33,431 bases of DNA from Dehalococcoidia bacterium (GTDB lineage: Bacteria > Chloroflexota > Dehalococcoidia > SM23-28-2 > HRBIN24). This document shows positions 1,911-22,633 of this stretch, one piece after another; positions within the stretch are counted from its first letter, which is position 1, and every line of letters begins with the position of its first letter. Location of the stretch: contig JANXAP010000022.1 of assembly GCA_025062275.1 (NCBI GenBank), positions 1-33,431 of the forward strand, written 5' to 3'. The translations under genes were made by a program, and so were the position numbers. The notes beneath the pieces were generated by a model that did no database searches, was not told where the DNA came from, and was given only the letters and a program-made list of their open reading frames with translations.

Positions 1911-3125
1911 CTACAGCGGACGGCTCTGGGCGGCCGCGTCGGGAGCCCTCACCAGGCCGTCTGCCAGGAACCTGGCTACCTCCTGGCTGCTGTAGCCGTG
2001 CTCCAGTAGCAGCTCCACCGAGTGCTGGCCGATCTCCGGCCCGATGGCCGGCGGAGCGGGGTCGGCCCAGCCCCTGCGCAGGGGCACGTCGATGCCGCGG
2101 AAGGTGACACCGCTGTCGTCGACCACCTCCACGATGGAATCGTTGGCCAGAACCTGGGGATGCTGCACCACCTGCGGGATGTCCAGGACCGGGGCGGCCA
2201 GCGCCCGGTAGCGAGCGCACCTCTCTAGCAACTCGAAGAGGGCCAGGCCGTTGCAGATGTCCTGGATCTCTCTCTCCAGCTCGTCGACGTGGGCCAGCCT
2301 GGACTCCATGTCCTTGAACCGTTCGTCCTGGTAGAGGGGGATGCCCAGCGCCTCGCAGAGCCGCCGGAAGAAGCCGTCGTTGGGCGCCGAGAGGAAGACA
2401 TGGCTGCCATCGGCACAGCGGAATATGCCTGACGGGGCGAAGTAAGGGCTGCGGTTGGCAGTCCGGGGGTGCACCCAGCCCGTGAGCAGATAGCTGCCCA
2501 ACGAGGTGGTGTTGAGGCAGAGGGCGGCCTCCAGCAGGGACGTATCTACCCTCTGGCCGGAGCCAGTAGCGTTGCGTTGCTGCAGCCCAACCAGCGCCCC
2601 GATCACCGCCAGCAGTGCTGTGGTCATATCGATGATGGGCGCCGGCACCCTCGAAGGGCGTCCAGCGTCGCCACCGTTGAGGCTGGCCAGGCCCGAGAGG
2701 GACTGGGCCAGGGGGTCGATGCCCGGTCGGCCCGCATATGGGCCCTCTTTGCCCCAGGCGGTGATGCCGACCCAGACGATGTCCGGCCGCACCTTGCTGG
2801 CCTGGTCGTAGGAGATGCCCAGGGCCGAGAGGGCCGGCTCCTGCACGTTGGTTATGAGGACGTCCGACCGCTCCACCAGCCGGGCGATGATCTCCCTGGC
2901 GCCGGGGTCGGCCAGGTTCAGCGCGATGCTGCGCTTGTTGCGGTTTACGCTCATAAAGAGGGCCGACTGGCCTCGCCATCTGGGCCCCAGGACGCGCAGC
3001 GGGTCGCCTTGCAGGTCTTCGACCTTCACCACATCGGCGCCGAGGCTGCCCAGGAAGGACGCCGCGTATGGCCCCGAGATCATGGAGGCCACTTCCAGGA
3101 CGCGCGTGCCGGCCAGGGGGCCCAT
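1911..3125 (-). CDS. Family III CoA-transferase (CaiB/BaiF type)
   Basis: This 404-residue protein belongs to the formyl-CoA transferase/CaiB/BaiF family, which moves CoA between carboxylic acids through an enzyme-bound aspartyl-CoA. Family hallmarks include the N-terminal LAGTRVLEVASMISGPYAAS, the strand GADVVKVEDLQGDPLR, the block NRNKRSIALNL, and the conserved Asp of PIIDMTTALLAVIGAL, which matches the catalytic aspartate region. The frame is open further upstream, but that part is compositional. The ATG at 3125 begins the conserved N-terminus. A -10-like TATAGT about 37 bases upstream suggests that this gene starts a transcription unit with selA and the LigB-like gene. The substrate cannot be read from sequence. 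Next to the flavoprotein operon, a role in activating a cyclic acid or a breakdown product is reasonable inference. Confidence 0.88.
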   Translation of the reverse strand: MGPLAGTRVLEVASMISGPYAASFLGSLGADVVKVEDLQGDPLRVLGPRWRGQSALFMSVNRNKRSIALNLADPGAREIIARLVERSDVLITNVQEPALSALGISYDQASKVRPDIVWVGITAWGKEGPYAGRPGIDPLAQSLSGLASLNGGDAGRPSRVPAPIIDMTTALLAVIGALVGLQQRNATGSGQRVDTSLLEAALCLNTTSLGSYLLTGWVHPRTANRSPYFAPSGIFRCADGSHVFLSAPNDGFFRRLCEALGIPLYQDERFKDMESRLAHVDELEREIQDICNGLALFELLERCARYRALAAPVLDIPQVVQHPQVLANDSIVEVVDDSGVTFRGIDVPLRRGWADPAPPAIGPEIGQHSVELLLEHGYSSQEVARFLADGLVRAPDAAAQSRPL

Positions 3126-3161
3126 CCCTGCTTCCCGTCTCGTCGAGAATGGTCTCCGACT

Positions 3162-3191
3162 ACTATATCGGCTCGGCCAGAGTGAGAGAAA
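3162..3191 (-). promoter_or_regulatory. Putative sigma70-type promoter for CoA-transferase/selA unit
   Basis: The minus strand carries TATAGT at 3162-3167, a good -10 match, with a weak TTTCTC 18 bases upstream at 3186-3191. The predicted transcript would start near 3155 and give a leader of about 30 bases, the length seen at the clearer promoters in this window. The -35 match is poor, so confidence is moderate. Confidence 0.42.
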
Positions 3192-3226
3192 GCCCCGACG
3201 GTCACGGAGCGCCGGGCGCGCCGCCG

Positions 3227-3679
3227 TCAGGAAGCGCTCTGTCGCCCCGACTTCATGAGGGTGGCGACGATACGGTCCAGCAACTCGTCCGAGCCTTGCT
3301 GCACGAAGGGGACCATCAGCCGGTTCACCACCGGCCCCAGCACGCCGCCGTAGGTGACATCGCCGTCGCCGCGGATGACGGTGCCCCCGTCCGAGTCGGA
3401 CAGGGTTATCAGGCCATGACCGCTGATGGGCTCGTTGAGGCCTGTCAGGTCGAACCCGACCCGTTCTCCCTCGACCCATTCGGTGACCACGACCCTGACC
3501 TTGGTGGTGCGTCGCAGAGGCCCCACCTCGCCCTTGATGACCCATATGTACTCTTTGTCGCTGATCACCTCGTGGGACTGGTAGCCAGGGGCCATGGGCG
3601 CCCAGTTGTTGATGTCCTTCACGAACTCCCACACCTGGGCGCGCGGGAGCGGGATCTCGCGTTCGTACTTGATCTTCAT
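3227..3679 (-). CDS. SRPBCC-family protein, CoxG-like
   Basis: The product is 150 residues with the START/SRPBCC (Bet v 1-like) helix-grip layout. It starts MKIKYEREIPLPRAQVWEF and continues with the typical helix-1 segment VKDINNWAPMAPGY, the beta strands, and a long C-terminal helix (VQQGSDELLDRIVATLMK). CoxG proteins of carbon monoxide dehydrogenase clusters are the nearest named family, but no CODH genes are present. A hydrophobic-ligand binding or membrane-recruitment role is more likely. The ATG at 3679 has GAGGGAG upstream; the frame remains open beyond it, but the conserved domain starts here. It is the last gene of the flavoprotein operon, 34 bases after the preceding stop. It may shuttle or present the hydrophobic substrate to the two dehydrogenases, which is inference. 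Confidence 0.8.
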   Translation of the reverse strand: MKIKYEREIPLPRAQVWEFVKDINNWAPMAPGYQSHEVISDKEYIWVIKGEVGPLRRTTKVRVVVTEWVEGERVGFDLTGLNEPISGHGLITLSDSDGGTVIRGDGDVTYGGVLGPVVNRLMVPFVQQGSDELLDRIVATLMKSGRQSAS

Positions 3680-3713
3680 CGCACAGCTCCCTCGGCATGA
3701 CCATCGGGACGGC

Positions 3714-5339
3714 TCATGCTTGCCCTCCGGTAGCGTGCATGGCCGACAGGTAGCCCCAGGTAACGGCCAGGCCGATAGTGCCTCCGCCACCGTAGTAGCC
3801 CGGCCCGGCCACGCTGGCCATGACGTTGCCGGCAGCGTAGAGGCCCTCGATAGGCTGGCCGCGCACGTTCAGCACCTGGCCGTGCACGTTGGTACGGGGG
3901 CCGCCCTTGGTGCCGGCCGATGCCACATGGATGGGCAGGGCATAGAAGGGAGGCCTCTCGATGGTGCCGATGTTGGGGTGGTAGTGGGACGGGTCTCCCA
4001 GCCAGCGCTCGTAGGGCGCGTTGCCGCGCTGGAACTCCCTGTCCACACCTGCCTTGGCGAACTCGTTCCAGCGGTCGACCGTGTCTTGCAGGCGCTCGCA
4101 GTCGATGCCCAGCTTCGCTGCCAGGTCCCCCAGCGTCTCGGCCTTGGGCAGCCACTCCGGGTCGGGGTCGGTGGGCATCACCGTCAGGATGGGATATTTG
4201 GCCCTGAACTGGGAGTCCATGATGACCCAGCAGGGGATGTTACGGAAGGTGTACTCGGTGGGATCGAAGGCGTACAGCGCCTTGGACATATCGTTGTAGT
4301 TAACGGCCTCGTTGACGAAGCGCAGCCCGTGGCGGTTGACCATGATGGAATGGGGCAGGCTCCTCTCGCCGATGACCCAGCGGCTGACGGGCCTCCCTTC
4401 GTACTCTTCGCCGGGGACGCTGGCCCCGGGGTAGAGCCAGGCCTCCGGCATGTTGCCCAGGTCGGCACCTATCTCCAGGGTCATGAGCAGGCCGTCACCC
4501 CTGTTGAAGGGAGTGCTGCAGTGGAGATGGACAGGCCCCGGAATGAAGCGGTGCCACAGCTCCTGGTTCCACTCGAAGCCGCCGCAGGCCAGGATGGTGC
4601 CCTTTGTGGCCTGCAGGACGATGCGCTCCTCCTCCCGGCGCACCGTTTCGACCCCCACCACGCGACCGTTCTGTTGCAACAGCCTGACGGCACGGGTCTC
4701 CAGCATGAACTCTATGCCACGGTCGAGGCATGCCTTCAGCAGCCCGGCTATGAGGGCGTTGCCCGAACCGACGAGGCCCTGGCTCATCCGCTCTTCGATG
4801 GCCTGCAGGGGGAAGGAGGCGGGCCGGGCCATGCCGAGCATGGCCTCGTCTATGGTCAGGGGGACCACCATCATGGGCGAAGGCGGGATTTTCGAAGCCC
4901 AGTCACCGAGCTGTGGCAGTGGGAAGAAGCCGGGGTCGAGAGTGCGGCCCGCCTTCCCTCCCGGCATCTCGGCATGATAATCGGGCATCGAGGAGGCGCG
5001 GAACTTGAGAGGCGTCTTCTCCTCTAAGTAGCGGATGACTTTATGTCCAGTATCTACGAACTTCTCCACCAGCTCGCGGGGCGCGCGGCCGGCAGTGAGG
5101 CGGGTGCAGTACTCCAGGGCCTCGTCCCTGGAGTCCTCCTCGCCCACCTCCGCCATGTGGTGATTGAGCGGTATCCACACCCCTCCACCCGACAGGGCAG
5201 ATGTCCCCCCGATCTTGTCGGCGGCCTCCACCACGATTACTCTCGCCCCTCGATCGTGGGCGACGATGGCCGCTGTCAGCCCAGCGGCCCCCGATCCCAC
5301 CACCACCACATCGGCCTCTCTGTTCCTGCTCTGCTCCAT
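3714..5339 (-). CDS. FAD-dependent dehydrogenase, KstD/fumarate-reductase flavoprotein family (copy 1)
   Basis: This 541-residue flavoprotein has the FAD dinucleotide motif GSGAAG at residues 15-20, the ADKIGGTSALSGGGVWIP segment typical of 3-ketosteroid delta1-dehydrogenase relatives, and the C-terminal FAD motif GLYAAGNVMASVAGPGYYGG followed by GGTIG. The first Tyr of that last motif aligns with the catalytic Tyr of the KstD C-terminal YPGAG motif. The family inserts or removes ring double bonds by hydride and proton abstraction. The length is typical. The ribosome site GGAGGG precedes the ATG at 5339. It is the second of two tandem paralogues, 37 bases after copy 2, and lies downstream of etfBA. 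A 3-ketosteroid, another cyclic ketone or a fumarate-like compound could be the substrate; the sequence does not say which. Confidence 0.85.
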   Translation of the reverse strand: MEQSRNREADVVVVGSGAAGLTAAIVAHDRGARVIVVEAADKIGGTSALSGGGVWIPLNHHMAEVGEEDSRDEALEYCTRLTAGRAPRELVEKFVDTGHKVIRYLEEKTPLKFRASSMPDYHAEMPGGKAGRTLDPGFFPLPQLGDWASKIPPSPMMVVPLTIDEAMLGMARPASFPLQAIEERMSQGLVGSGNALIAGLLKACLDRGIEFMLETRAVRLLQQNGRVVGVETVRREEERIVLQATKGTILACGGFEWNQELWHRFIPGPVHLHCSTPFNRGDGLLMTLEIGADLGNMPEAWLYPGASVPGEEYEGRPVSRWVIGERSLPHSIMVNRHGLRFVNEAVNYNDMSKALYAFDPTEYTFRNIPCWVIMDSQFRAKYPILTVMPTDPDPEWLPKAETLGDLAAKLGIDCERLQDTVDRWNEFAKAGVDREFQRGNAPYERWLGDPSHYHPNIGTIERPPFYALPIHVASAGTKGGPRTNVHGQVLNVRGQPIEGLYAAGNVMASVAGPGYYGGGGTIGLAVTWGYLSAMHATGGQA

Positions 5340-5376
5340 CGTGACCCTCCTGCGTCAGCCCTGTCTGGGGCCTCGC

Positions 5377-7023
5377 TTACATCCTTTCGGTGGCGGTCAC
5401 GCCGCAGATATAGCCGAAGGTTATGGCCGGGGCGAGGGTGCCTCCGCCCCCGCAGTAGGCGCCCCCCAGCGGAGCCGCGATGGTGTTGCCGGCGGCATAC
5501 AGGCCGGGAATGGGGTGCCCACGCACGTGCATCACCTGCCCCCTCTGGTTGACCCGGGGGCCGCCGTTGGTGCCCAGCGCTCCCGGGTACACTGGCAGGG
5601 CGTAGAAGGGCGGCTGAGCGATGGTGCCCAGGTTGGGATGTGGCGCGTCGGGATCCCCGGAGTAGCGTGCGAAGGGGTTCTTGCCCCGCCCGAACTCTCG
5701 GTCCTCGCCCTGCGCCACGAAGCTGTTCCAACGGTCGACGGTCTCCACCAGGCGCTCGGCGTCCACACCTATCTTTCCGGCCAGCTCCGGCAAGCTATCG
5801 GCCCGCACCAGCCACTCCGGATCGGGGTCGCCGGGCATGACCGTCATGATGGGGTACCTGGACCTGAACTGCCTGTCCATGATGGCCCAGCAGGGGATAT
5901 TCCTGTAGGAGTAGGAGGTAGGATCGAACTCGGCCATCGCCTTGGTCAGGTCGTTGTAGGGCGCCCCCTCGTCGGCGAAGCGCCGTCCCCACCTGTTGAC
6001 CATGATGGTGTGAGGTAGGTTACGCTCGCCCCCCACCTGTCGTGCCAGCGGGTGGCCCTCGTATTCCTCCCCAGGAATGAAGGCGGAAGGGGACCCCCAG
6101 ACGCTGTGGGTGTTGGCCAGGTCAGCGCCTACCTCCATGGCCATCAACAGGGCGTCGCCCTCGTTGCCGGGCGGGCTGTTGGGCCATTGCATGGGGAAGG
6201 GCAAGAAGCGGGATATCAGCTCCTGGTTCCACTCGAAGCCACCCGCTGCCAGCACCACCCCCAGCCGCCCGACCAGGTCCCACTCTCTGTCGCTCACTTG
6301 GACGCGGACGCCGGTCACGCGTCCCTCCTCCTGCAGGAGCCTCCTGGCCCGGGCGTTCAGCAAGACGTGGACGCCCAGGCGCAGGCAGCCTGCCAGCAGG
6401 CCCGTCACCAGGGCCTGGCCCATGGTGGCCATCCCCTTGGTCATGCGCTCCTCCAGGAGTTGCAGGGGTAGCCCGGCGCCCCGCAGGAGCCTGCCGCCAC
6501 CGATGATCTCCTCCAGCGTCAGGGGGATGGAGTAGATGGGGGCAGGCCGCAGGAACGGCTCGGCCTCGCCCAGCACGCTGCGCGGGATGGGCTGCGGCTC
6601 CAGGCTGCGTCCCTTGAGCTTGCCTCCGACGATCTCGGCGTGGTAGTCGGGCGCGGCCCACACCGAGAACCGGAGAGGGGTCTTGTCCTCCAGGAAGCGG
6701 ACCACCTTCGGGGCCGTGTCCACAAACGTCTCCACCAGCGTCGGGTCGGCCGTGGGGCCTCCCAGCTTGAGGCAGTAGGCCAGGGCCTCCTCCTTGCTGT
6801 CCGACTCCCCCACCTCGGCCATGTGGTGGTTCTGGGGGACCCAGATAGCGCCTCCGGATACGGCCGAGGTGCCGCCTATCTTGTCCGCCCTCTCGACGAC
6901 GATGACCCGTGCGCCTCTGGCTGCGGCAGCCAGGGCCGCCGTGAGGCCGGCGGCCCCTGAGCCGACCACCACCAGGTCGGCGCCGCGCTGCGCCAGTGTG
7001 CCGGGGTCAGTCACGACCGGCAT
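5377..7023 (-). CDS. FAD-dependent dehydrogenase, KstD/fumarate-reductase flavoprotein family (copy 2)
   Basis: The product is 548 residues and clearly paralogous to copy 1. They share GSGAAG (here residues 21-26), the ADKIGGTSA segment with NHHMAEVGE, TPLRF/TPLKF, the FEWNQELI/L block and the C-terminal GLYAAGNTIAAPLGGAYCGG. The C-terminal catalytic Tyr region reads AYCGGGG here and GYYGGGG in copy 1, so the Tyr is kept but its neighbours differ. That fits two related dehydrogenases with different substrates or different ring positions. A GGAGGTG ribosome site precedes the ATG at 7023. It lies 26 bases after the etfA stop, inside the operon. I infer that its reduced flavin is reoxidised by the co-encoded ETF. 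Confidence 0.85.
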   Translation of the reverse strand: MPVVTDPGTLAQRGADLVVVGSGAAGLTAALAAAARGARVIVVERADKIGGTSAVSGGAIWVPQNHHMAEVGESDSKEEALAYCLKLGGPTADPTLVETFVDTAPKVVRFLEDKTPLRFSVWAAPDYHAEIVGGKLKGRSLEPQPIPRSVLGEAEPFLRPAPIYSIPLTLEEIIGGGRLLRGAGLPLQLLEERMTKGMATMGQALVTGLLAGCLRLGVHVLLNARARRLLQEEGRVTGVRVQVSDREWDLVGRLGVVLAAGGFEWNQELISRFLPFPMQWPNSPPGNEGDALLMAMEVGADLANTHSVWGSPSAFIPGEEYEGHPLARQVGGERNLPHTIMVNRWGRRFADEGAPYNDLTKAMAEFDPTSYSYRNIPCWAIMDRQFRSRYPIMTVMPGDPDPEWLVRADSLPELAGKIGVDAERLVETVDRWNSFVAQGEDREFGRGKNPFARYSGDPDAPHPNLGTIAQPPFYALPVYPGALGTNGGPRVNQRGQVMHVRGHPIPGLYAAGNTIAAPLGGAYCGGGGTLAPAITFGYICGVTATERM

Positions 7024-7049
7024 GGGACACCTCCACGGCCAGGACCCCT

Positions 7050-8036
7050 CTATCCGGCCTCCCTCTTGGCCTCCTTGAGTCGACGGATGAGGGCGTCCAG
7101 TAGCTCTACTGCGTCGCCGACGACGCCGTACTTGGCGTACCTGAAGATAGGAGCGCCCGAGTCCTTGTTGATGGCCACGATGGTCCGCGCCCCCGAGCAG
7201 CCTGCCATGTGCTGACTGGCCCCCGATATCCCCACGGCGATGTAGAGCAGGGGCTTGACCACCTTGCCCGTCAGGCCCACCTGGTGAGAGGCGTCGACCC
7301 AGCCGGCGTCCACCAGGGGGCGGGAGGCGGCCGGCACTCCCCCCAGCAGGCGGGCCAGCTCCTGGATCAGGGGGTAGTTATCGGGCGATCCCAGGCCGCG
7401 ACCGCCCGCAACGATCACCTGGGCCTCGTCCAGCCTCGGCCCGGAGGTCTCGGCCACCTGTATTCGCCGCGCCCTCTCGCCCGTTCCGTCCAGCGGGATG
7501 TGGACCTCCTGATATTCCGGCTCCGATGGGAGCGGGGCTGCCTGGGGGATGGTCGCCGTGGGGGCGGTCAGAAGCAGGTAGGGCGGCCCTCCGCGCAACC
7601 GATAGTCGGCGGTGAGGCTGCCGCCGAACGCCAGGGCTCTGGCCCGGAGGGTGCTGCCATCCTCGTCTCGCTCCACCGACTGCACGTTCACCAGCACCGG
7701 GACCTGCAGCCTGACGGCGACCCTGGCGGCCACGATGCGCGACCACCAGGAGCTGGCGAACACCAGGACGAAGGGGGAGGCTGACCGGCAGTAACGGGCC
7801 AGCAGCTCCACCGAGGCATCCAGCCCCGCGTCCTCGTCGTCGGGGTTCAGTACTTCGACTCGCCCGATGCCGTAACTGCGGGCGAAGGCCCGCATGTCCA
7901 GGGGCGGACGGCCCAGGCCCAGCCAGCGGGCCTCGGCGCCCAGCCCTTCGGCCGTCTGTCGCAGGAAGGTGAGCAGCTCTTCGATGTCTCCGCCCGTGAG
8001 CCTCTCGTAGGCCGAAGTGCAGGCGACGGCAATCAT
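7050..8036 (-). CDS. etfA: Electron transfer flavoprotein alpha subunit
   Basis: The 328-residue product has the two-part ETF-alpha layout: a variable N-terminal alpha/beta domain, then the conserved FAD-binding domain. Signature stretches are VAGGRGLGS, GLTGKVVKPLLYIAVGISGA, QHMAGCSGARTIVAINKD and APIFRYAKYGVVGD, which together bind the FAD. The partner beta subunit is directly upstream (43 bases). The heterodimer accepts electrons from flavin dehydrogenases and normally delivers them to ETF:quinone oxidoreductase at the membrane. No acyl-CoA dehydrogenase is in the operon, while two KstD-like flavoproteins follow immediately. That makes them the likely donors (inference). The GGAG site lies about 11 bases ahead of the ATG, behind an A-rich spacer. 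Confidence 0.93.
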   Translation of the reverse strand: MIAVACTSAYERLTGGDIEELLTFLRQTAEGLGAEARWLGLGRPPLDMRAFARSYGIGRVEVLNPDDEDAGLDASVELLARYCRSASPFVLVFASSWWSRIVAARVAVRLQVPVLVNVQSVERDEDGSTLRARALAFGGSLTADYRLRGGPPYLLLTAPTATIPQAAPLPSEPEYQEVHIPLDGTGERARRIQVAETSGPRLDEAQVIVAGGRGLGSPDNYPLIQELARLLGGVPAASRPLVDAGWVDASHQVGLTGKVVKPLLYIAVGISGASQHMAGCSGARTIVAINKDSGAPIFRYAKYGVVGDAVELLDALIRRLKEAKREAG

Positions 8037-8079
8037 TTTTGCGGTTCTCCACCGTGGCTTTGGACTCTAAGGTCTGGGC

Positions 8080-8898
8080 CTAGAGCTTGACCAGGCCATC
8101 GCGCTGCAGCACTTCCAGCAGCTTGGCGGCCGTATCGTCAGCCCCGTCGCCCGAGATCATTTGGCAGTGTCCCTCCACCTGGACCACCCGGAGCCTCTCC
8201 AGGACGACCCGCGGCTCCAGGTCGCCAGGCCCCAGGCCCAGCTCCTGTGGAGTGACCACCTGGGGCATGGCACGACGGGCCTTGATGGCCCTGGCCGCGG
8301 GTGGGTACCTGGGCTGGCCCAGTTCGCTGGTGATGGTCACCACCGCTGGCAGCGGCAGTTCCCATACCTCCTCACCGTAAGGGGTCACGACGGTGACGTG
8401 CAGGGCCGGTCCATCTCCCGCCCCGTCCGGCTCGATGCTCAAGGCCCTGGCCGAGAGGGCTACGGGGATGCCCAGCAGTTCGGCCAGCGCCGGCCCCACG
8501 ATGCCCTGGTCGTCATCGGACGCCTGTCGACCGCACAGGACCAGGTCGGCACCGCCGGATGACCGTATGTATTCGGCGATGACGCGGGCCACGCCCAGGC
8601 AGTCCAGGTCGCGGGCGGGAATGGACACGATCTCGTCAGCGCCCAGGGCCAGGGCATAGCGGAGGACATTGATGGGGTCCTCTCCCACCGAGATGGCGAT
8701 TATCTGGCAGTCCACTCCGGCGTCCCGCAGGCGTAGCGCCGCCTCTATCGCCTGCTCGTCGTAGCCGTTGATGACTCGCGTGATGGCGCCCTCTTCGATG
8801 GTCTTGCCGTCGGGGCCGATGGACAGCTGCCCCGTCAGGACGAGGGCGTTGACCGCGTCTGGGTCCAGGACCTCCTTCACGCAGACGACGATCCTCAT
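8080..8898 (-). CDS. etfB: Electron transfer flavoprotein beta subunit
   Basis: This 272-residue protein starts MRIVVCVKEVLDPD and has the ETF-beta signatures VINGYDEQAIEAALRL, GADEIVSI and DLVLCGRQASDDDQGIVGPA, the last being the region that holds AMP and contacts the alpha subunit. A C-terminal extension, roughly residues 240-272, ends in a helix-like segment common in the FixA/EtfB subgroup of anaerobes and Chloroflexota. It begins 10 bases after the stop of the nitronate monooxygenase-like gene, so the two are surely co-transcribed. Whether this ETF bifurcates cannot be judged by eye; nothing else in the operon (no butyryl-CoA dehydrogenase, no FixC/FixX) argues for it. Confidence 0.93.
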   Translation of the reverse strand: MRIVVCVKEVLDPDAVNALVLTGQLSIGPDGKTIEEGAITRVINGYDEQAIEAALRLRDAGVDCQIIAISVGEDPINVLRYALALGADEIVSIPARDLDCLGVARVIAEYIRSSGGADLVLCGRQASDDDQGIVGPALAELLGIPVALSARALSIEPDGAGDGPALHVTVVTPYGEEVWELPLPAVVTITSELGQPRYPPAARAIKARRAMPQVVTPQELGLGPGDLEPRVVLERLRVVQVEGHCQMISGDGADDTAAKLLEVLQRDGLVKL

Positions 8899-8908
8899 CG
8901 CCGGGCTC

Positions 8909-10018
8909 TCACGAAGTTATGGTCAGTTCGCCGACGAGCTGTTCGAACACCTCCGTGGCCTCGGCGATCAGGTCGAACACGATCTGCCGGGCGGGCTTGA
9001 TGCTGGTGACGAAGCCCACGCCCTGACCGGCGGCCTCGGTCATGAAGTCCTCGATGCCGTAATCGCGGGCCGCCTGCATCACCTCGCCGGCCATGATCAT
9101 CTGGTGGGGCGGCGGGAGGGGCTTGGGCGCCTCCGGCGACTCCCACTCCTTGGTCCACTGGTTCCTGAGTATTCGCATGGGCAGGCCGGAGACGGAGCGT
9201 GAGTGGGTCAGGTCCTCGGCCGTGGCGGCCAGCAGCTTCTGCTTGATGACCATGTCCACGTCAGACTCGCGGCTGGTCAGCCAGATGGTGCCCGTCCACA
9301 CGCCCACGGCGCCCAGGCAGAGGGCGGCCGCCAGGTGCCGACCAGTGGTGACGCCGCCGGCAGCGATGACGGGGGTATCGCCGGCGATGGCTGCCACCAT
9401 CGGCACCAGGGAGAAGGTGCCGATGTAACCGGTGTGGCCGGCCGCGTCATAGCCCTGGGCGATGATGGCATCCACGCCCAGCTCGAGCTCGCGCTTGGCC
9501 TGCTTGGGAGAGCCGACCAGGCCCCAGACCTGCATGCCCCTGGCGCGGGCCGGCTCCAGGACCCACTCGGGGCTGCCGAGGCCGAAGGCCAGGACGGGCA
9601 CCTTGTGGTCCAGCACTACCTCCAGCTGACGCCTGGTGCCCTCCTTGCTGAACCACCCCAGCTTGTAGTACTCGGGCTCGTTCTTGGGGTCGGGGATGTT
9701 GTACTTGCGCTTTATCTCGGCCACGAATCGCTTGTGGGTCTCGGGAATCTGCGCCTTGAGCTCCTCGATGGTCGCGCTGGGCGGGCTGGCGGCGGGCAGG
9801 AGCAGGTCCACGCCGAAAGGCTTGTTGCCTATCCTCTCGCGGATCCATCTGATGTCGGCGTCCAGCTCGTCGGGCGTGCGGGGCGCACCGCCGTAGACCG
9901 AGAAGGCCCCCGCATTGATGACGGCTACGACCACGTCGCGACAGTGGGTGAAGGCGATGATGGGGTACTCGATGCCGAGGATGTCGCATAACTTGGTGTG
10001 CAGGGGGTTGCGGGCCAT
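8909..10018 (-). CDS. Nitronate monooxygenase / 2-nitropropane dioxygenase-family FMN protein
   Basis: The 369-residue product is an FMN TIM-barrel protein of the NMO/FabK/IpdC family. The phosphate-binding half is clear: GVDAIIAQGYDAAGHTG with the family His at residue 195, then TPVIAAGGVTTGRHLAAALCLGAVGVWTGT. The N-terminus is unusual: where classical members have a QAPMAG-like motif it reads PIIAFTHCRDVVVAV, and there is an insertion of about 40 residues near 90-130. Real nitronate oxidation is therefore doubtful. IpdC-type enzymes of steroid ring breakdown share this fold and make a better functional guess in this operon. The ATG at 10018 has GAGGTG five bases upstream; the frame extends further but without a ribosome site. 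It is the first gene of a six-gene operon. Confidence 0.85.
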   Translation of the reverse strand: MARNPLHTKLCDILGIEYPIIAFTHCRDVVVAVINAGAFSVYGGAPRTPDELDADIRWIRERIGNKPFGVDLLLPAASPPSATIEELKAQIPETHKRFVAEIKRKYNIPDPKNEPEYYKLGWFSKEGTRRQLEVVLDHKVPVLAFGLGSPEWVLEPARARGMQVWGLVGSPKQAKRELELGVDAIIAQGYDAAGHTGYIGTFSLVPMVAAIAGDTPVIAAGGVTTGRHLAAALCLGAVGVWTGTIWLTSRESDVDMVIKQKLLAATAEDLTHSRSVSGLPMRILRNQWTKEWESPEAPKPLPPPHQMIMAGEVMQAARDYGIEDFMTEAAGQGVGFVTSIKPARQIVFDLIAEATEVFEQLVGELTITS

Positions 10019-10052
10019 CGTATCACCTCGTCCCGATATCTTGCTCGCCCAT

Positions 10053-10081
10053 ATGCTATCGCCCGGCCAGATGCATGTCAA
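10053..10081 (-). promoter_or_regulatory. Strong sigma70-type promoter of the flavoprotein operon
   Basis: On the minus strand there is a perfect TTGACA (10076-10081) and a TAGCAT -10 (10053-10058) separated by exactly 17 bases. The transcript would start near 10046, leaving a leader of about 28 bases before the ATG at 10018. This is one of the clearest promoters in the window and supports treating the six genes as one unit. Confidence 0.75.
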
Positions 10082-18717: not shown

Positions 18718-18747
18718 TTGACAGCATCTGGGAACGGCCGGTATCGT
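18718..18747 (+). promoter_or_regulatory. Strong promoter of the AOR operon
   Basis: A perfect TTGACA at 18718-18723 is followed after 18 bases by TATCGT (18742-18747). The transcript would start near 18754, with a leader of about 28 bases carrying GGGAGGG before the ATG at 18782. It is divergent to the serA operon promoter, with about 90 bases between the two -35 boxes. Confidence 0.7.
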
Positions 18748-18781
18748 GATGGCGCGTTGTCAGACCAGCGGGAGGGCTGTT

Positions 18782-19243
18782 ATGAGGATGATCCTCTCCC
18801 ACCCTGAGAAGTGCGTCGCCTGTCATTTGTGCGAGGGCGCGTGCTCCTTCCGTCACGAGAACACCTTCGCCCCCTCCAAGACCCGCATCTGGGTCTTCGA
18901 CTTCGTGGAAGACCAGATATACGGCGCCTTTACCTGCTTCCACTGCGCCGATGCGCCCTGTCTGTCCAACTGCCCCACCTACGCCATCGGCCGCGACCCG
19001 CAGACGGGGCAGGTGTTCGTGAACGACGACAAGTGCATCGGCTGCAAGATGTGCCTGGTGGCCTGCCCCTTCGGGGTCATGGGCTTTCACGCGGACAAGC
19101 ACGTGGCCCAGAACTGCGACCTGTGTGGCGGCGACCCCCAGTGCGTCAAGGCCTGTGTCTACGGTGCCCTGGAGTTCGCCGAGGTAGAGCCGCTGCCCTG
19201 GGAGCAGCGTATGGCCCAGCTGGAGCAGCCTGCTGTTGCCTAG
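18782..19243 (+). CDS. Four-cluster [4Fe-4S] ferredoxin subunit of the aldehyde oxidoreductase (AorA-like)
   Basis: The 153-residue polyferredoxin has sixteen cysteines in four sets: 11/14/17/21, 52/55/60/64, 85/88/91/95 and 112/115/121/125. This is the DMSO-reductase-subunit-B style arrangement, so four [4Fe-4S] clusters are expected. It should carry electrons between the tungsten subunit and the flavin subunit encoded downstream. Aromatoleum aromaticum AorA has the same size and cluster count. The ATG at 18782 has GGGAGGG upstream and follows a good promoter; an earlier in-frame ATG at 18746 lies within the -10 region and is unlikely. The next gene, the AOR large subunit, starts 27 bases on. 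Confidence 0.88.
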   Translation: MRMILSHPEKCVACHLCEGACSFRHENTFAPSKTRIWVFDFVEDQIYGAFTCFHCADAPCLSNCPTYAIGRDPQTGQVFVNDDKCIGCKMCLVACPFGVMGFHADKHVAQNCDLCGGDPQCVKACVYGALEFAEVEPLPWEQRMAQLEQPAVA

Positions 19244-19270
19244 CACCCGAGCGCGCGGAGGTAAGGGAAC

Positions 19271-21094
19271 ATGCCTTATGGATGGGTCGGCACCGTCCTG
19301 CGCATCGATCTGACCAACGGCCGTATCGTCAAAGAGCCGCTCAACTTGGACTGGGCGAGGCAGTTCATCGGCGGCCGCGGTCTGGGCACCAAGTACCTCT
19401 ACGAGGAGATAGACCCCCGCTGCGATCCGCTGGGCCCTGACAACAAGGTCATCTTCGCTACCGGTCCCCTGACGGGCACCTACGCTCCTACCGGCGGCCG
19501 CTATATGGTCCTCTGCAAGAGCCCCTTGACCGATGCCATCGCCTGCTCCAACTCCGGTGGCTATTGGGGGCCGGAGCTGAAGTTCGCCGGCTATGACATG
19601 GTCATCCTGGAGGGGAAGGCACCGAAGCCCGTTTACATCTGGGTCTACAACGATCACGTGGAGATCCGAGACGCCTCCCACGTCTGGGGCAAGGACACGG
19701 CCCAGACGGAGGACATCCTCCGCTCCGAGACCGACCCCCAGGCCCGGGTGGCTGGCATCGGCCCCGCGGGCGAGAACCTGTGCCGCGTGGCCTGTGTCAT
19801 CAACGACAAGGGTCGGGCGGCAGGCCGCTCCGGCGTGGGCGCGGCCATGGGTGCCAAGAACGTCAAGGCCATCGTGGTCAGGGGCACTGGCGCTGTCCCT
19901 GTGGCCGACCCCATCGCCTTTTCCCAGCTGGTGATGGAGTCGCTGGAGCTCATCAACCAGTCCCCGGCCACGGCCCATGCATTGCGGGGCCTGGGCACCG
20001 CCTCCACGGTGGGATTCACCAACGCCGTGGGCATCCTACCCACTCGCAACTTCCAGTCGGGGCAGTTCGAGCATGCCCAGGCCGTCAGTGGGCAGGCCCT
20101 CGCCCAGTCGATGCTGGTGCGCAACAAGGGCTGCTACTCCTGTCCTATCGGTTGCGCTCGGGTTACCGAGATCCGCGGCCCCAGCAAGTGGCAGGGCAAG
20201 GGCGAGGGGCCGGAATACGAGACGGTGTTCGGGCTGGGCACCGACTGCGGCGTTGGCGACCTGGCCGCTGTCCTCTATGCCAACTACCTGTGCAACCTGT
20301 GGGCCATGGACACCATCTCCGCCGGGGGCACCATTGCCACCGCCATGGAGCTGGCCGAGAAGGGCTACATCCCGCCCGAGGACCTGGCGGAGCTGCCCTT
20401 CGAGCTGAAGTTCGGCAACCCCGACGCCGTCATCGGCTGTCTGGAGCTGATGGCGTTCCGCAAGGGCAAGTTCGGCAACCTGCTGGCCGAGGGAGGTTAT
20501 CGTCTGGCCGAATACTATGGCCACCCCGAGCTGTTCATGGGGGTGAAGAAGCAGGACTTCGCCGCCTACGACCCTCGCGGTGCCAAGGGCATGGGGCTGG
20601 GATACGCCACCTCCAACCGGGGCGCCTGCCACCTGCGCGGATATACCATGTCCGTGGAGTGGTTCGCGCCGCCCAACCAGCGCCTGGATCCCTTCACCAT
20701 CGAGGGCAAGGCGCAGGCCCAGAAGGTCTTCCAGGACAAGGCTGCCTGTGAGGACTCCGCCGGCATCTGCACCTTCAGCGCCTTCGCCATACCGCCCGAG
20801 AAGCTGTGCGCCCTCTACAACGCTGCCACCGGCGAGAACCTGAGCATCGAGCAGTGGAACCTGGCCGGTGAGCGCATCTGGAACCTGGAGCGCCTGTTCA
20901 ACAACCGCGCTGGCCTGGGTCGCAAGGACGATACCCTGCCGCCGCGCATGTTGAAGGAGCCTCTCACTGGCGGCGCCGTCCAGGGACAGGTGGTAGAGCT
21001 GGAGCCCATGCTGGAGGAGTATTACCGTGTGCGTGGCTGGGACGAAGAGGGGCGGCCGCTGCCCGAGACCCTGGCCCGCCTGGGCCTGGCCTGA
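19271..21094 (+). CDS. aor: Tungsten-dependent aldehyde:ferredoxin oxidoreductase family catalytic subunit
   Basis: The 607-residue protein is an AOR-family catalytic subunit that should hold a W-bis-pyranopterin and one [4Fe-4S] cluster. The cluster ligands are C288, C291, C295 (CYSCPIGC) and C500 (DSAGIC), at nearly the same positions as in Pyrococcus furiosus AOR. The N-terminal GGRGLGTKYLYEE segment, the GRAAGRSGVGAAMGAKN motif (about 181-197) and the GACHLRG motif with H454 are family signatures. Typical reactions are aldehyde oxidation to acid, or the reverse with low-potential electrons. A strong AGGTAAGGG site precedes the ATG. The operon also encodes the ferredoxin, the flavin subunit and a MoaD-like protein, so a three-subunit AorABC-type complex is likely. 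Confidence 0.93.
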   Translation: MPYGWVGTVLRIDLTNGRIVKEPLNLDWARQFIGGRGLGTKYLYEEIDPRCDPLGPDNKVIFATGPLTGTYAPTGGRYMVLCKSPLTDAIACSNSGGYWGPELKFAGYDMVILEGKAPKPVYIWVYNDHVEIRDASHVWGKDTAQTEDILRSETDPQARVAGIGPAGENLCRVACVINDKGRAAGRSGVGAAMGAKNVKAIVVRGTGAVPVADPIAFSQLVMESLELINQSPATAHALRGLGTASTVGFTNAVGILPTRNFQSGQFEHAQAVSGQALAQSMLVRNKGCYSCPIGCARVTEIRGPSKWQGKGEGPEYETVFGLGTDCGVGDLAAVLYANYLCNLWAMDTISAGGTIATAMELAEKGYIPPEDLAELPFELKFGNPDAVIGCLELMAFRKGKFGNLLAEGGYRLAEYYGHPELFMGVKKQDFAAYDPRGAKGMGLGYATSNRGACHLRGYTMSVEWFAPPNQRLDPFTIEGKAQAQKVFQDKAACEDSAGICTFSAFAIPPEKLCALYNAATGENLSIEQWNLAGERIWNLERLFNNRAGLGRKDDTLPPRMLKEPLTGGAVQGQVVELEPMLEEYYRVRGWDEEGRPLPETLARLGLA

Positions 21095-21115
21095 CACCAC
21101 GGTGAGGAGGAGGGC

Positions 21116-22393
21116 ATGACCAGCTACGTTATCCTGGGCGCCAGCGCCGCAGGCCTCTCGGCCATAGAGGCCATACGTCAGCGCGACCCCTCCGGCCCCA
21201 TCACGCTGGTCTCCAAGGAGCCGGAGCCTTGCTACTCCCGCGTCGCCCTTCCCTATCTCATCGCCGGCGAGAAAGACCTTCGCCAGATAACCTTGCAGAC
21301 ACCCGACTACTTCCGCAGTCGCGGAGTGGAGGCCATCTGGGGCGTGGGAGCTGCCGCTCTGGACCCACAGGCGCGGCAGGTGCGCCTGGAGGACGGCCGC
21401 ACCCTCAGCTACGACCGTCTGCTCATCGCCACCGGCTCCCGCTCCCGAGTTCCTCCCGTGCAAGGCATCCATGAGGCGGAGGTCTGCTATCACTGGACGC
21501 TGGCCGATGCGGCGCGGATCGACCGCGCCAGCGAGGGTGCTCGCAGTTGCTTCGTCATCGGCGCGGGCTTCATCAGCCTTCTCACCATCAACGCCCTTCT
21601 CAAGAGGCGCCCCGGCCTGCGCTACACCGTCGTCGAGATCGCCGACCAGGTCATGCCCCAGCTGCTGGACCCCGAAGGCGGCCGCCGACTGGAAGAGGAG
21701 ATGCGCTCCCTGGGCATGGAGGTCCTGCTGGGAGATGCCGTCAGCGCCGTCGAGCAGGGCAGGGATGGCAAGTTCACACTGCACCTGCGAAGCGGCAAGA
21801 CCTATCAGGCAGACATGGTCGTGTGCGGCACTGGCGTAGAGCCCAACATCGGCTTCGTGCAGGGCTCGGGTCTGGAAGTTGGCCGTGGTATCAGGACTAA
21901 CGAGCGACAGGAGACCAACCTGCCCGGCGTGTACGCTGCCGGCGACTGCGCCGAGACGCGCGACTTCATAAGCAGCGAGCCGGTGGTCCATGCCATCTGG
22001 CCCACGGCCGTCGACCAGGGGCGGGTGGCTGGCGCCAACATGGCCGGCGACAGCGTCACGTATCCGGGGAGCCTCAGCTGGAACGTCACCGAGCTGTTCG
22101 GCCTCTCCTGCGCCTCTATCGGCAAGTTCCGGGACGAGCCGGGCCTGGAGCCCATCGTCTTTCGCGACCGGGCCACCGGCGTCTATCGTAAGGTGCTGGT
22201 GGACGGCGAGAACCGGGTGGTGGGTGCTGTGGTCATTGGCCGTCCCCAGGACGTCCAGGAGCTGGGAGTGCTGCAGGCGATGGTGCGGCGGCGCACTGAC
22301 GTCTCCCGCTGGAAGCACCGCTTCACCCATGAGCGCATCAACCTTGGTATGATAGCTTTCGAGGCCCTCAAGGCCCAACTGGCGAGGCGATAG
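21116..22393 (+). CDS. NAD(P)/FAD-dependent oxidoreductase (AorC-like, nitrite-reductase/rubredoxin-reductase type)
   Basis: The 425-residue product is a two-dinucleotide-fold flavoprotein. The FAD motif is GASAAG at residues 8-13 (Ser in place of the middle Gly). The NAD(P) motif is GAGFIS at 149-154, ending in Ser rather than Gly. The second FAD motif is GVYAAGDCAET near 281-291. The early EPCYSRVALPYLI segment is common in NirB-like and CoA-disulfide-reductase-like members. In the AOR operon it most likely exchanges electrons between NAD(P)H and the ferredoxin subunit, as AorC does in Aromatoleum aromaticum. The ATG follows GAGGAGGGC, 21 bases after the AOR stop. Confidence 0.86.
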   Translation: MTSYVILGASAAGLSAIEAIRQRDPSGPITLVSKEPEPCYSRVALPYLIAGEKDLRQITLQTPDYFRSRGVEAIWGVGAAALDPQARQVRLEDGRTLSYDRLLIATGSRSRVPPVQGIHEAEVCYHWTLADAARIDRASEGARSCFVIGAGFISLLTINALLKRRPGLRYTVVEIADQVMPQLLDPEGGRRLEEEMRSLGMEVLLGDAVSAVEQGRDGKFTLHLRSGKTYQADMVVCGTGVEPNIGFVQGSGLEVGRGIRTNERQETNLPGVYAAGDCAETRDFISSEPVVHAIWPTAVDQGRVAGANMAGDSVTYPGSLSWNVTELFGLSCASIGKFRDEPGLEPIVFRDRATGVYRKVLVDGENRVVGAVVIGRPQDVQELGVLQAMVRRRTDVSRWKHRFTHERINLGMIAFEALKAQLARR

Positions 22394-22396
22394 CGC

Positions 22397-22633
22397 ATGC
22401 GGGTGAGGGTGGAGCTGCAGGCCTATCTGGACAAGTATTCGCCCAACGGCGCCGGGGAGTTCGAGCTGGAACTGCCCGAGGGAGCTACGGTAGACACGCT
22501 AGTGCGACGCCTGGGCATACCGGACGACATGGCCCAGGTCATCATCGTCAATAACGAGAACTCGGACTTCGACCGCGCCCTGCAGGAGGGGGACAGGGTC
22601 ATCCTCATCCCACCCCTGGCAGGGGGCCAATAG
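22397..22633 (+). CDS. MoaD/ThiS-family sulfur carrier protein with GGQ C-terminus
   Basis: This 78-residue beta-grasp protein has the MoaD/ThiS layout: an ELELPEGATVDTLVRRLGIP segment, then VIIVNNENSDFDRALQEGD and RVILIPPLAGGQ. MoaD proteins donate sulfur to the pterin dithiolene after their C-terminal Gly-Gly is adenylated. Here one residue, Gln78, follows the Gly-Gly (codons GGG GGC CAA then TAG), so the tail would need trimming before use. It is last in the AOR operon, starting three bases after the previous stop, and likely serves the tungstopterin of AOR. The partner MoaE, MoeB or protease is not in the window. Confidence 0.85.
   Translation: MRVRVELQAYLDKYSPNGAGEFELELPEGATVDTLVRRLGIPDDMAQVIIVNNENSDFDRALQEGDRVILIPPLAGGQ

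Follow-up and report, generated by a model that had tools for sequence, protein, structure and literature searches.

A predicted AorABC-type tungsten oxidoreductase operon in Dehalococcoidia, from a lineage separate from the Aromatoleum enzyme

Introduction

The aorABC operon, together with the MoaD-like genes aorD and aorE, was described in 2019. In the aldehyde oxidoreductase of Aromatoleum aromaticum (AaAOR), filaments require the C-terminal helix of AorA (PMC10413684), and the use of H2, a side activity, takes place at the tungsten site (PMC9295118). The three C-terminal helices of its AorC have been proposed to nucleate the filament. Class III of the tungsten oxidoreductases (WORs) was defined in 2026; going by the main text of that paper, it has 179 members in 9 clades, AaAOR is the sole characterised member, and Chloroflexota are not mentioned (PMC13328260). 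A three-subunit AOR has also been reported from Moorella, on the basis of its operon structure (PMC6365974). A literature search for Chloroflexota together with AOR found no study of the operon described here.

Here we describe such an operon within a stretch of 33,431 nucleotides from a Dehalococcoidia bacterium (contig JANXAP010000022.1), which we call the window. Its nearest named relatives support a placement in Chloroflexota. Very probably, the product of this operon is a tungsten oxidoreductase of Class III (AorABC / WorLSN), encoded along with a helper for cofactor maturation, and the enzyme would oxidise aldehydes to acids and pass the electrons to NAD+.

Results

Operon structure and promoter

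Four genes on the forward strand, in the order aorA-aorB-aorC-aorD, span positions 18782 to 22633, with intergenic gaps of just 27, 21, and 3 bp; GGAGG-like ribosome sites precede aorA, aorB, and aorC. The first gene, aorA (18782-19243), encodes a polyferredoxin of 153 amino acids with 16 cysteines in four motifs, as expected for four [4Fe-4S] clusters. It is followed by aorB (19271-21094), for the tungsten AOR catalytic subunit (607 amino acids, with the AFOR_N and AFOR_C domains); by aorC (21116-22393), for an FAD/NAD(P) oxidoreductase of 425 amino acids (Pyr_redox_2); and by aorD (22397-22633), for a MoaD/ThiS-like sulfur carrier of 78 amino acids, which we consider to be of the WorX type because of its ThiS match and its place after aorC. 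So the initial annotation had the composition right: the ferredoxin, the AOR subunit, the oxidoreductase, and the MoaD-like carrier are all there as open reading frames, each with a domain match.

The TTGACA promoter that had been noticed in front of these genes also holds up. A sigma-70-type promoter, TTGACA-N18-TATCGT, lies at 18718-18747 on the forward strand and has 10 of 12 consensus matches with an 18-nt spacer. An exact TTGACA is found 58-86 nt upstream of aorA in all seven loci that were compared from the order (within a search zone of 120 nt, in which about 2% of loci would be expected to have one by chance), and in 6 of the 7 loci compared, a -10-like hexamer follows 17-18 nt later. 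For aorA, the ATG at 18782 is a better start than the GTG that had been listed (18746), which runs into the -10 box.

The catalytic subunit

AorB matches both AFOR domains from Pfam far above the cut-off (AFOR_N, PF02730, E=2e-85, 286 bits; AFOR_C, PF01314, E=6e-140, 467 bits). Its global identity is 51% to AaAOR, 54% to WOR1 of Acetomicrobium mobile (AmWOR1), and 50% to the AOR of Pyrococcus furiosus (PfAOR), so it is roughly equidistant from all three. In a search of the PDB, the bifurcating A. mobile enzyme (9mqx) came first and AaAOR (8c0z) came third, with BamB far lower.

All of the tungsten-cofactor, iron-sulfur, and catalytic residues that could be mapped are retained, bar one conservative change; V510 is replaced by Thr. 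The retained residues include the ligands of the FS0 cluster (C288, C291, C295, and C500), the catalytic residues (E317, H454, and Y433), and the contacts to magnesium and pterin (R77, N94, G96, R182, A183, D347, D495, and I499). The aromatic residues that line the substrate pocket (Y458, F502, and F505) are retained as well. The set of residues that goes with aldehyde-oxidising WORs (Thr243/Glu313/Tyr427/His448 in PfAOR numbering) is complete, as T243, E317, Y433, and H454. The AaAOR paper numbers its histidine both 464 and 484; we took His464 to be the catalytic one because position 464 aligns with H454 of AorB. These residues support a conserved tungstopterin site in AorB.

The polyferredoxin and its tail

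The cysteines of AorA are grouped at positions 11/14/17/21, 52/55/60/64, 85/88/91/95, and 112/115/121/125. We counted exactly 16, as had been claimed for a four-cluster ferredoxin, and all 16 align with those of AorA from AaAOR (42% global identity). 8c0z is the top match in a sequence search of the PDB, and 8c0z_C is the best PDB match of the AlphaFold model (mean pLDDT 93).

The model also has a C-terminal helix at 140-148 (pLDDT about 86-94), and the tail includes a motif, W-x-x-R-(M/L), that is conserved across the Chloroflexota clade. The tail is shorter than that of AaAOR, and the alignment between the two is loose. AorA has 26-51 residues after the last cysteine in AorC-linked loci; among the 15 loci in which no AorC was found, the tail has 8-21 residues in 10 and is long in 5. 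The difference in length between AorC-linked and other loci has P = 0.004 (Mann-Whitney test, which ignores relatedness). Because a third of the loci without a found AorC (5/15) are long-tailed, tail length is not a sharp discriminator of AorC linkage. Given the modeled helix, it is plausible that the Chloroflexota complex would form filaments.

The flavoprotein

AorC matches Pyr_redox_2 (Pfam, E=2e-51) and is 37% identical, globally, to AorC of AaAOR. Its best PDB match is 8c0z_E both by sequence and by fold (TM 0.88, for an AlphaFold model with pLDDT of 92), and its fold neighbours also include persulfide and CoA-disulfide reductases. As in AaAOR, three C-terminal helices are predicted.

The nucleotide site is less alike. 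According to the AaAOR paper, Arg179 contacts the NAD phosphate; the corresponding residue here is Gln182, and it is Gln in all 8 aligned AorC proteins of the Chloroflexota clade. Gln294 of AaAOR is replaced by Trp295, the NAD motif GxGxxG has become GxGxxS (again in 8/8 aligned proteins of the clade), and Met42 is replaced by Val. The glutamate that ends the second beta strand of the NAD domain (VVE) is retained. A locus from Nitrospinota (L005) has the Trp and GxGxxS in common with the Chloroflexota proteins, but it keeps the Arg, so the Trp and GxGxxS look like features of a clade rather than damage. Without equivalents of Arg179 and Gln294, and with GxGxxS in place of GxGxxG, AorC is not guaranteed to bind nucleotides as AaAOR does; in particular, because Arg179 is Gln here, the use of NAD by AorC is something that we infer.

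The MoaD-like protein

AorD matches ThiS/MoaD (Pfam, E=4e-11). MoaD proteins normally have GG as their reactive terminus, and the AorD proteins of most relatives end that way. AorD ends in GGQ in the window (LAGGQ, 22625-22633) and in HRbin24 (L002 3225-3458), and it ends in GGGQG in another locus (L003 9112-9351). The initial annotation gave the operon its own MoaD. There is indeed a MoaD-like gene in the operon, but it is not the sole MoaD-like gene of the genome, which has 8 further ThiS/MoaD matches, 7 of them above the cut-off. At G000:C9:51107-54266, three matches to the ThiS/MoaD family lie within 3.2 kb, and two of these are inside larger open frames.

Conservation and phylogeny

The order aorABCD is retained in 9 genomes: 4 of 4 from the family, 4 more from the order (G063, G196, G278, and G185), and 1 more from the class (G010). 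(In one of the genomes from the family, the contig begins inside aorA.) Within the class, strong matches to AorC are confined to genomes with ABCD, and the next match drops from 309 to 239 bits. The genes downstream, for a Rieske protein, PyrR, and PyrB, are conserved in the family and are dispersed across the order, while ABCD stays intact. That the gene order persists while the neighbours drift is good evidence that ABCD is one functional unit.

We built approximate trees with FastTree, from sequences that did not include the Moorella AOR. In the AorB tree, the Chloroflexota ABCD proteins form one clade (support 1.0) outside of the proteobacterial AaAOR clade; the branches between the groups that have ABC are weak and do not fix the order of these groups. 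In the AorC tree, all of the AOR-linked proteins, including AaAorC, group together (0.96), and flavoproteins from ferredoxin-flavoprotein pairs form a separate clade. Because the AOR-linked AorC proteins fall in one clade, the three-subunit design most likely came from a common ancestor. Independent recruitment of AorC in Chloroflexota would be a less simple explanation, as the AOR-linked proteins form one clade apart from their glutamate-synthase-linked relatives.

Ferredoxin-flavoprotein pairs that are homologous to AorA and AorC are common in the class (L129 409-3999, with similar pairs in L121-L141), and the pair in L129 adjoins a glutaminase domain of the glutamate-synthase type. This suggests that the pair can be reused as an adaptor that links NAD(P)H to catalytic subunits of different kinds. 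In L128, AorA and AorC reach about 55% and 35-39%, respectively, against their Proteobacterial counterparts, and they adjoin a much more distant subunit of the AOR family (33%). This pair may serve other tungsten enzymes too.

Classification

The sequence features that define Class III are present: WorL has both AFOR domains, a four-cluster WorS and a WorN with an FAD/NAD-binding domain are encoded adjacently, and the operon has no WorABC. AorB is not nested in the proteobacterial AaAOR clade but has a clade of its own (support 1.0). Judged by its sequences, aorABCD is a member of Class III from a lineage separate from that of AaAOR. Two other assignments were considered. The matches to the NCBIfam models for PadH and PadI are high yet below the cut-off (312 vs 475 bits and 91 vs 700), and the bifurcating Class IV would have WorABC, which is not found beside the operon.

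Genome and neighbourhood

The genome (1.81 Mb, 95% complete) has a single AFOR gene. Genes for tungstate uptake and pterin synthesis, whose absence would have counted against a tungsten enzyme in the initial annotation, are present: there are TupABC-like and ModABC transporters as well as MoaA and MoaC. At 231 bits, TupA stays below its curated cut-off (400), so the TupABC-like transporter is likely, rather than certain, to be specific for tungstate. There are also two matches to the molybdopterin-oxidoreductase family. The genome encodes a heme-copper oxidase, consistent with an enzyme that works in the oxidative direction, and no NiFe hydrogenase was detectable in it. Since AaAOR uses H2 at its tungsten site, the absence of a hydrogenase is neutral as to the use of H2.

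On one side, the operon is flanked by a divergent aminotransferase-SerA pair, and the Rieske, PyrR, and PyrB genes lie downstream. We tried to identify the substrate from these neighbours, but neither the aminotransferase and SerA nor the Rieske and pyrimidine genes give an aldehyde pathway. Farther away in the window, on the reverse strand, 516-1889 encodes SelA (selenocysteine synthase, over the curated cut-off), so the organism may use selenocysteine. Also on the reverse strand, 1911-10081 encodes a CaiB-type CoA-transferase, two ketosteroid-dehydrogenase-like flavoproteins, the alpha and beta subunits of ETF, and a FabK-like protein, which suggests a catabolic pathway for rings or acyl-CoA.

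Discussion

If the complex oxidises aldehydes, then AorB would convert the gem-diol of the aldehyde to the acid at a tungsten-bis-pyranopterin site, where Glu317, His454, and Tyr433 would relay protons. Single electrons would pass from the [4Fe-4S] cluster of AorB through the four clusters of AorA to the FAD of AorC, which would reduce NAD+ to NADH. AorA probably stacks via its C-terminal helix, so that several AorAB units would share each AorC, and AorD probably supplies sulfur for forming the dithiolene of the pterin. The chain of cofactors, from the tungsten site through the AorB cluster and AorA to FAD, is supported by the conserved residues that would hold it. We infer the rest, i.e., tungsten rather than molybdenum, the oxidative direction, NAD as the acceptor, the stacking of AorA, the role of AorD, and the class of substrate.

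The acceptor is where we have the most doubt. AorC might couple the wire to something other than NAD+, such as NADP+, a persulfide or CoA-disulfide, or another protein: the changes R179 to Q182, Q294 to W295, and GxGxxS are in 8/8 aligned AorC of the clade, and persulfide and CoA-disulfide reductases are among the neighbours by fold. But the VVE glutamate, which is usual in NAD enzymes, is kept, the AOR-linked proteins share one clade with AaAorC, and the closest fold is 8c0z_E, so we consider another acceptor to be unlikely. We are just as doubtful of a broader version, in which the clade is a distinct variant of Class III with a reshaped AorC pocket (Gln for Arg179, and GxGxxS), electrons that pass from the AorAB wire to something else than plain NAD+, and an AorD that must lose its terminal residue before it can act.

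Alternatively, the complex might run mainly in reverse in the cell, using NADH or H2 to turn carboxylic acids into aldehydes from which alcohols would be formed. AaAOR does reduce acids in vitro with H2 or low-potential donors (PMC9295118), and the AorB site is conserved. However, the acid/aldehyde couple is near -500 mV, which is beyond NADH alone, and the reduction of acids by AaAOR is observed at low rates and at low pH. A heme-copper oxidase is present and a NiFe hydrogenase is not (though AaAOR uses H2 at the tungsten site), and we saw no gene for an alcohol dehydrogenase next to the operon. All told, we think that this is improbable: of the two roles that the initial annotation suggested, acid reduction and aldehyde detoxification, the oxidation or detoxification of aldehydes is likelier because the genome encodes a terminal oxidase.

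Finally, it is very improbable that the enzyme depends on molybdenum, or that it is a homologue of AOR which acts on something other than aldehydes (cf. PfASOR, which acts on sulfonates, and BamB, which acts on benzoyl-CoA). The genome does have ModABC in addition to TupABC, and it has other Mo/W-type enzymes, but AorB keeps the full Thr243/Glu313/Tyr427/His448 set and the aromatic pocket of AaAOR (Phe511/Phe514/Tyr468), and its top matches in the PDB are aldehyde enzymes, well ahead of BamB.

With NAD-linked aldehyde oxidation as our reading, the operon adds a new branch to an enzyme class that was already known, and this is a well-supported but ordinary extension. The earlier suggestion that it widens the known range holds in that there is a new branch; it is less surprising than it seemed, given the Moorella AORs and the many Class III members that are already known. 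Still, this is a second and well-separated lineage (about 50% identity for AorB), and it is from a genome with a terminal oxidase. The Chloroflexota clade makes it possible to probe how general the findings from Aromatoleum are for filaments, for coupling to NAD, and for the use of H2.

How does the operon compare with known systems? The initial annotation matched it to the Aromatoleum AOR (8c0z), and this is correct as to homology: subunits A, B, and C are shared, in the order A-B-C and then a MoaD-like gene, as are the 16 cluster cysteines of AorA, the catalytic and FS0 residues, the three C-terminal helices of AorC, and a C-terminal helix of AorA (predicted, in our case). It is not the Aromatoleum AOR itself: AorB has its own clade and is about as far from AaAOR as from PfAOR and AmWOR1. 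The subunits are just 51% (B), 42% (A), and 37% (C) identical; there is one MoaD-like gene instead of two (aorD and aorE); and AorC has Gln for Arg179, Trp for Gln294, Val for Met42, and GxGxxS. The AOR of Moorella thermoacetica, which we compared by its description only, also has three subunits and the same operon structure, and it branches between AOR subfamilies (PMC6365974). WOR1 of A. mobile (9mqx), a bifurcating nanowire of Class IV, is the closest solved structure to AorB (54%) and has a similar nanowire subunit to AorA, but it hands its electrons on to WorABC, a bifurcating module, and there are no WorABC genes here. The AOR of P. furiosus (1aor, Class I) has the same fold and active site (50%), but it is a homodimer that is linked to ferredoxin and lacks both AorA and AorC. 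The ferredoxin-flavoprotein pairs of relatives in the class are homologous to AorA and AorC and are likewise encoded close together, but the catalytic partner is a different one (in L129, a domain of the glutamate-synthase type), and the pairs belong to a separate clade of the AorC tree.
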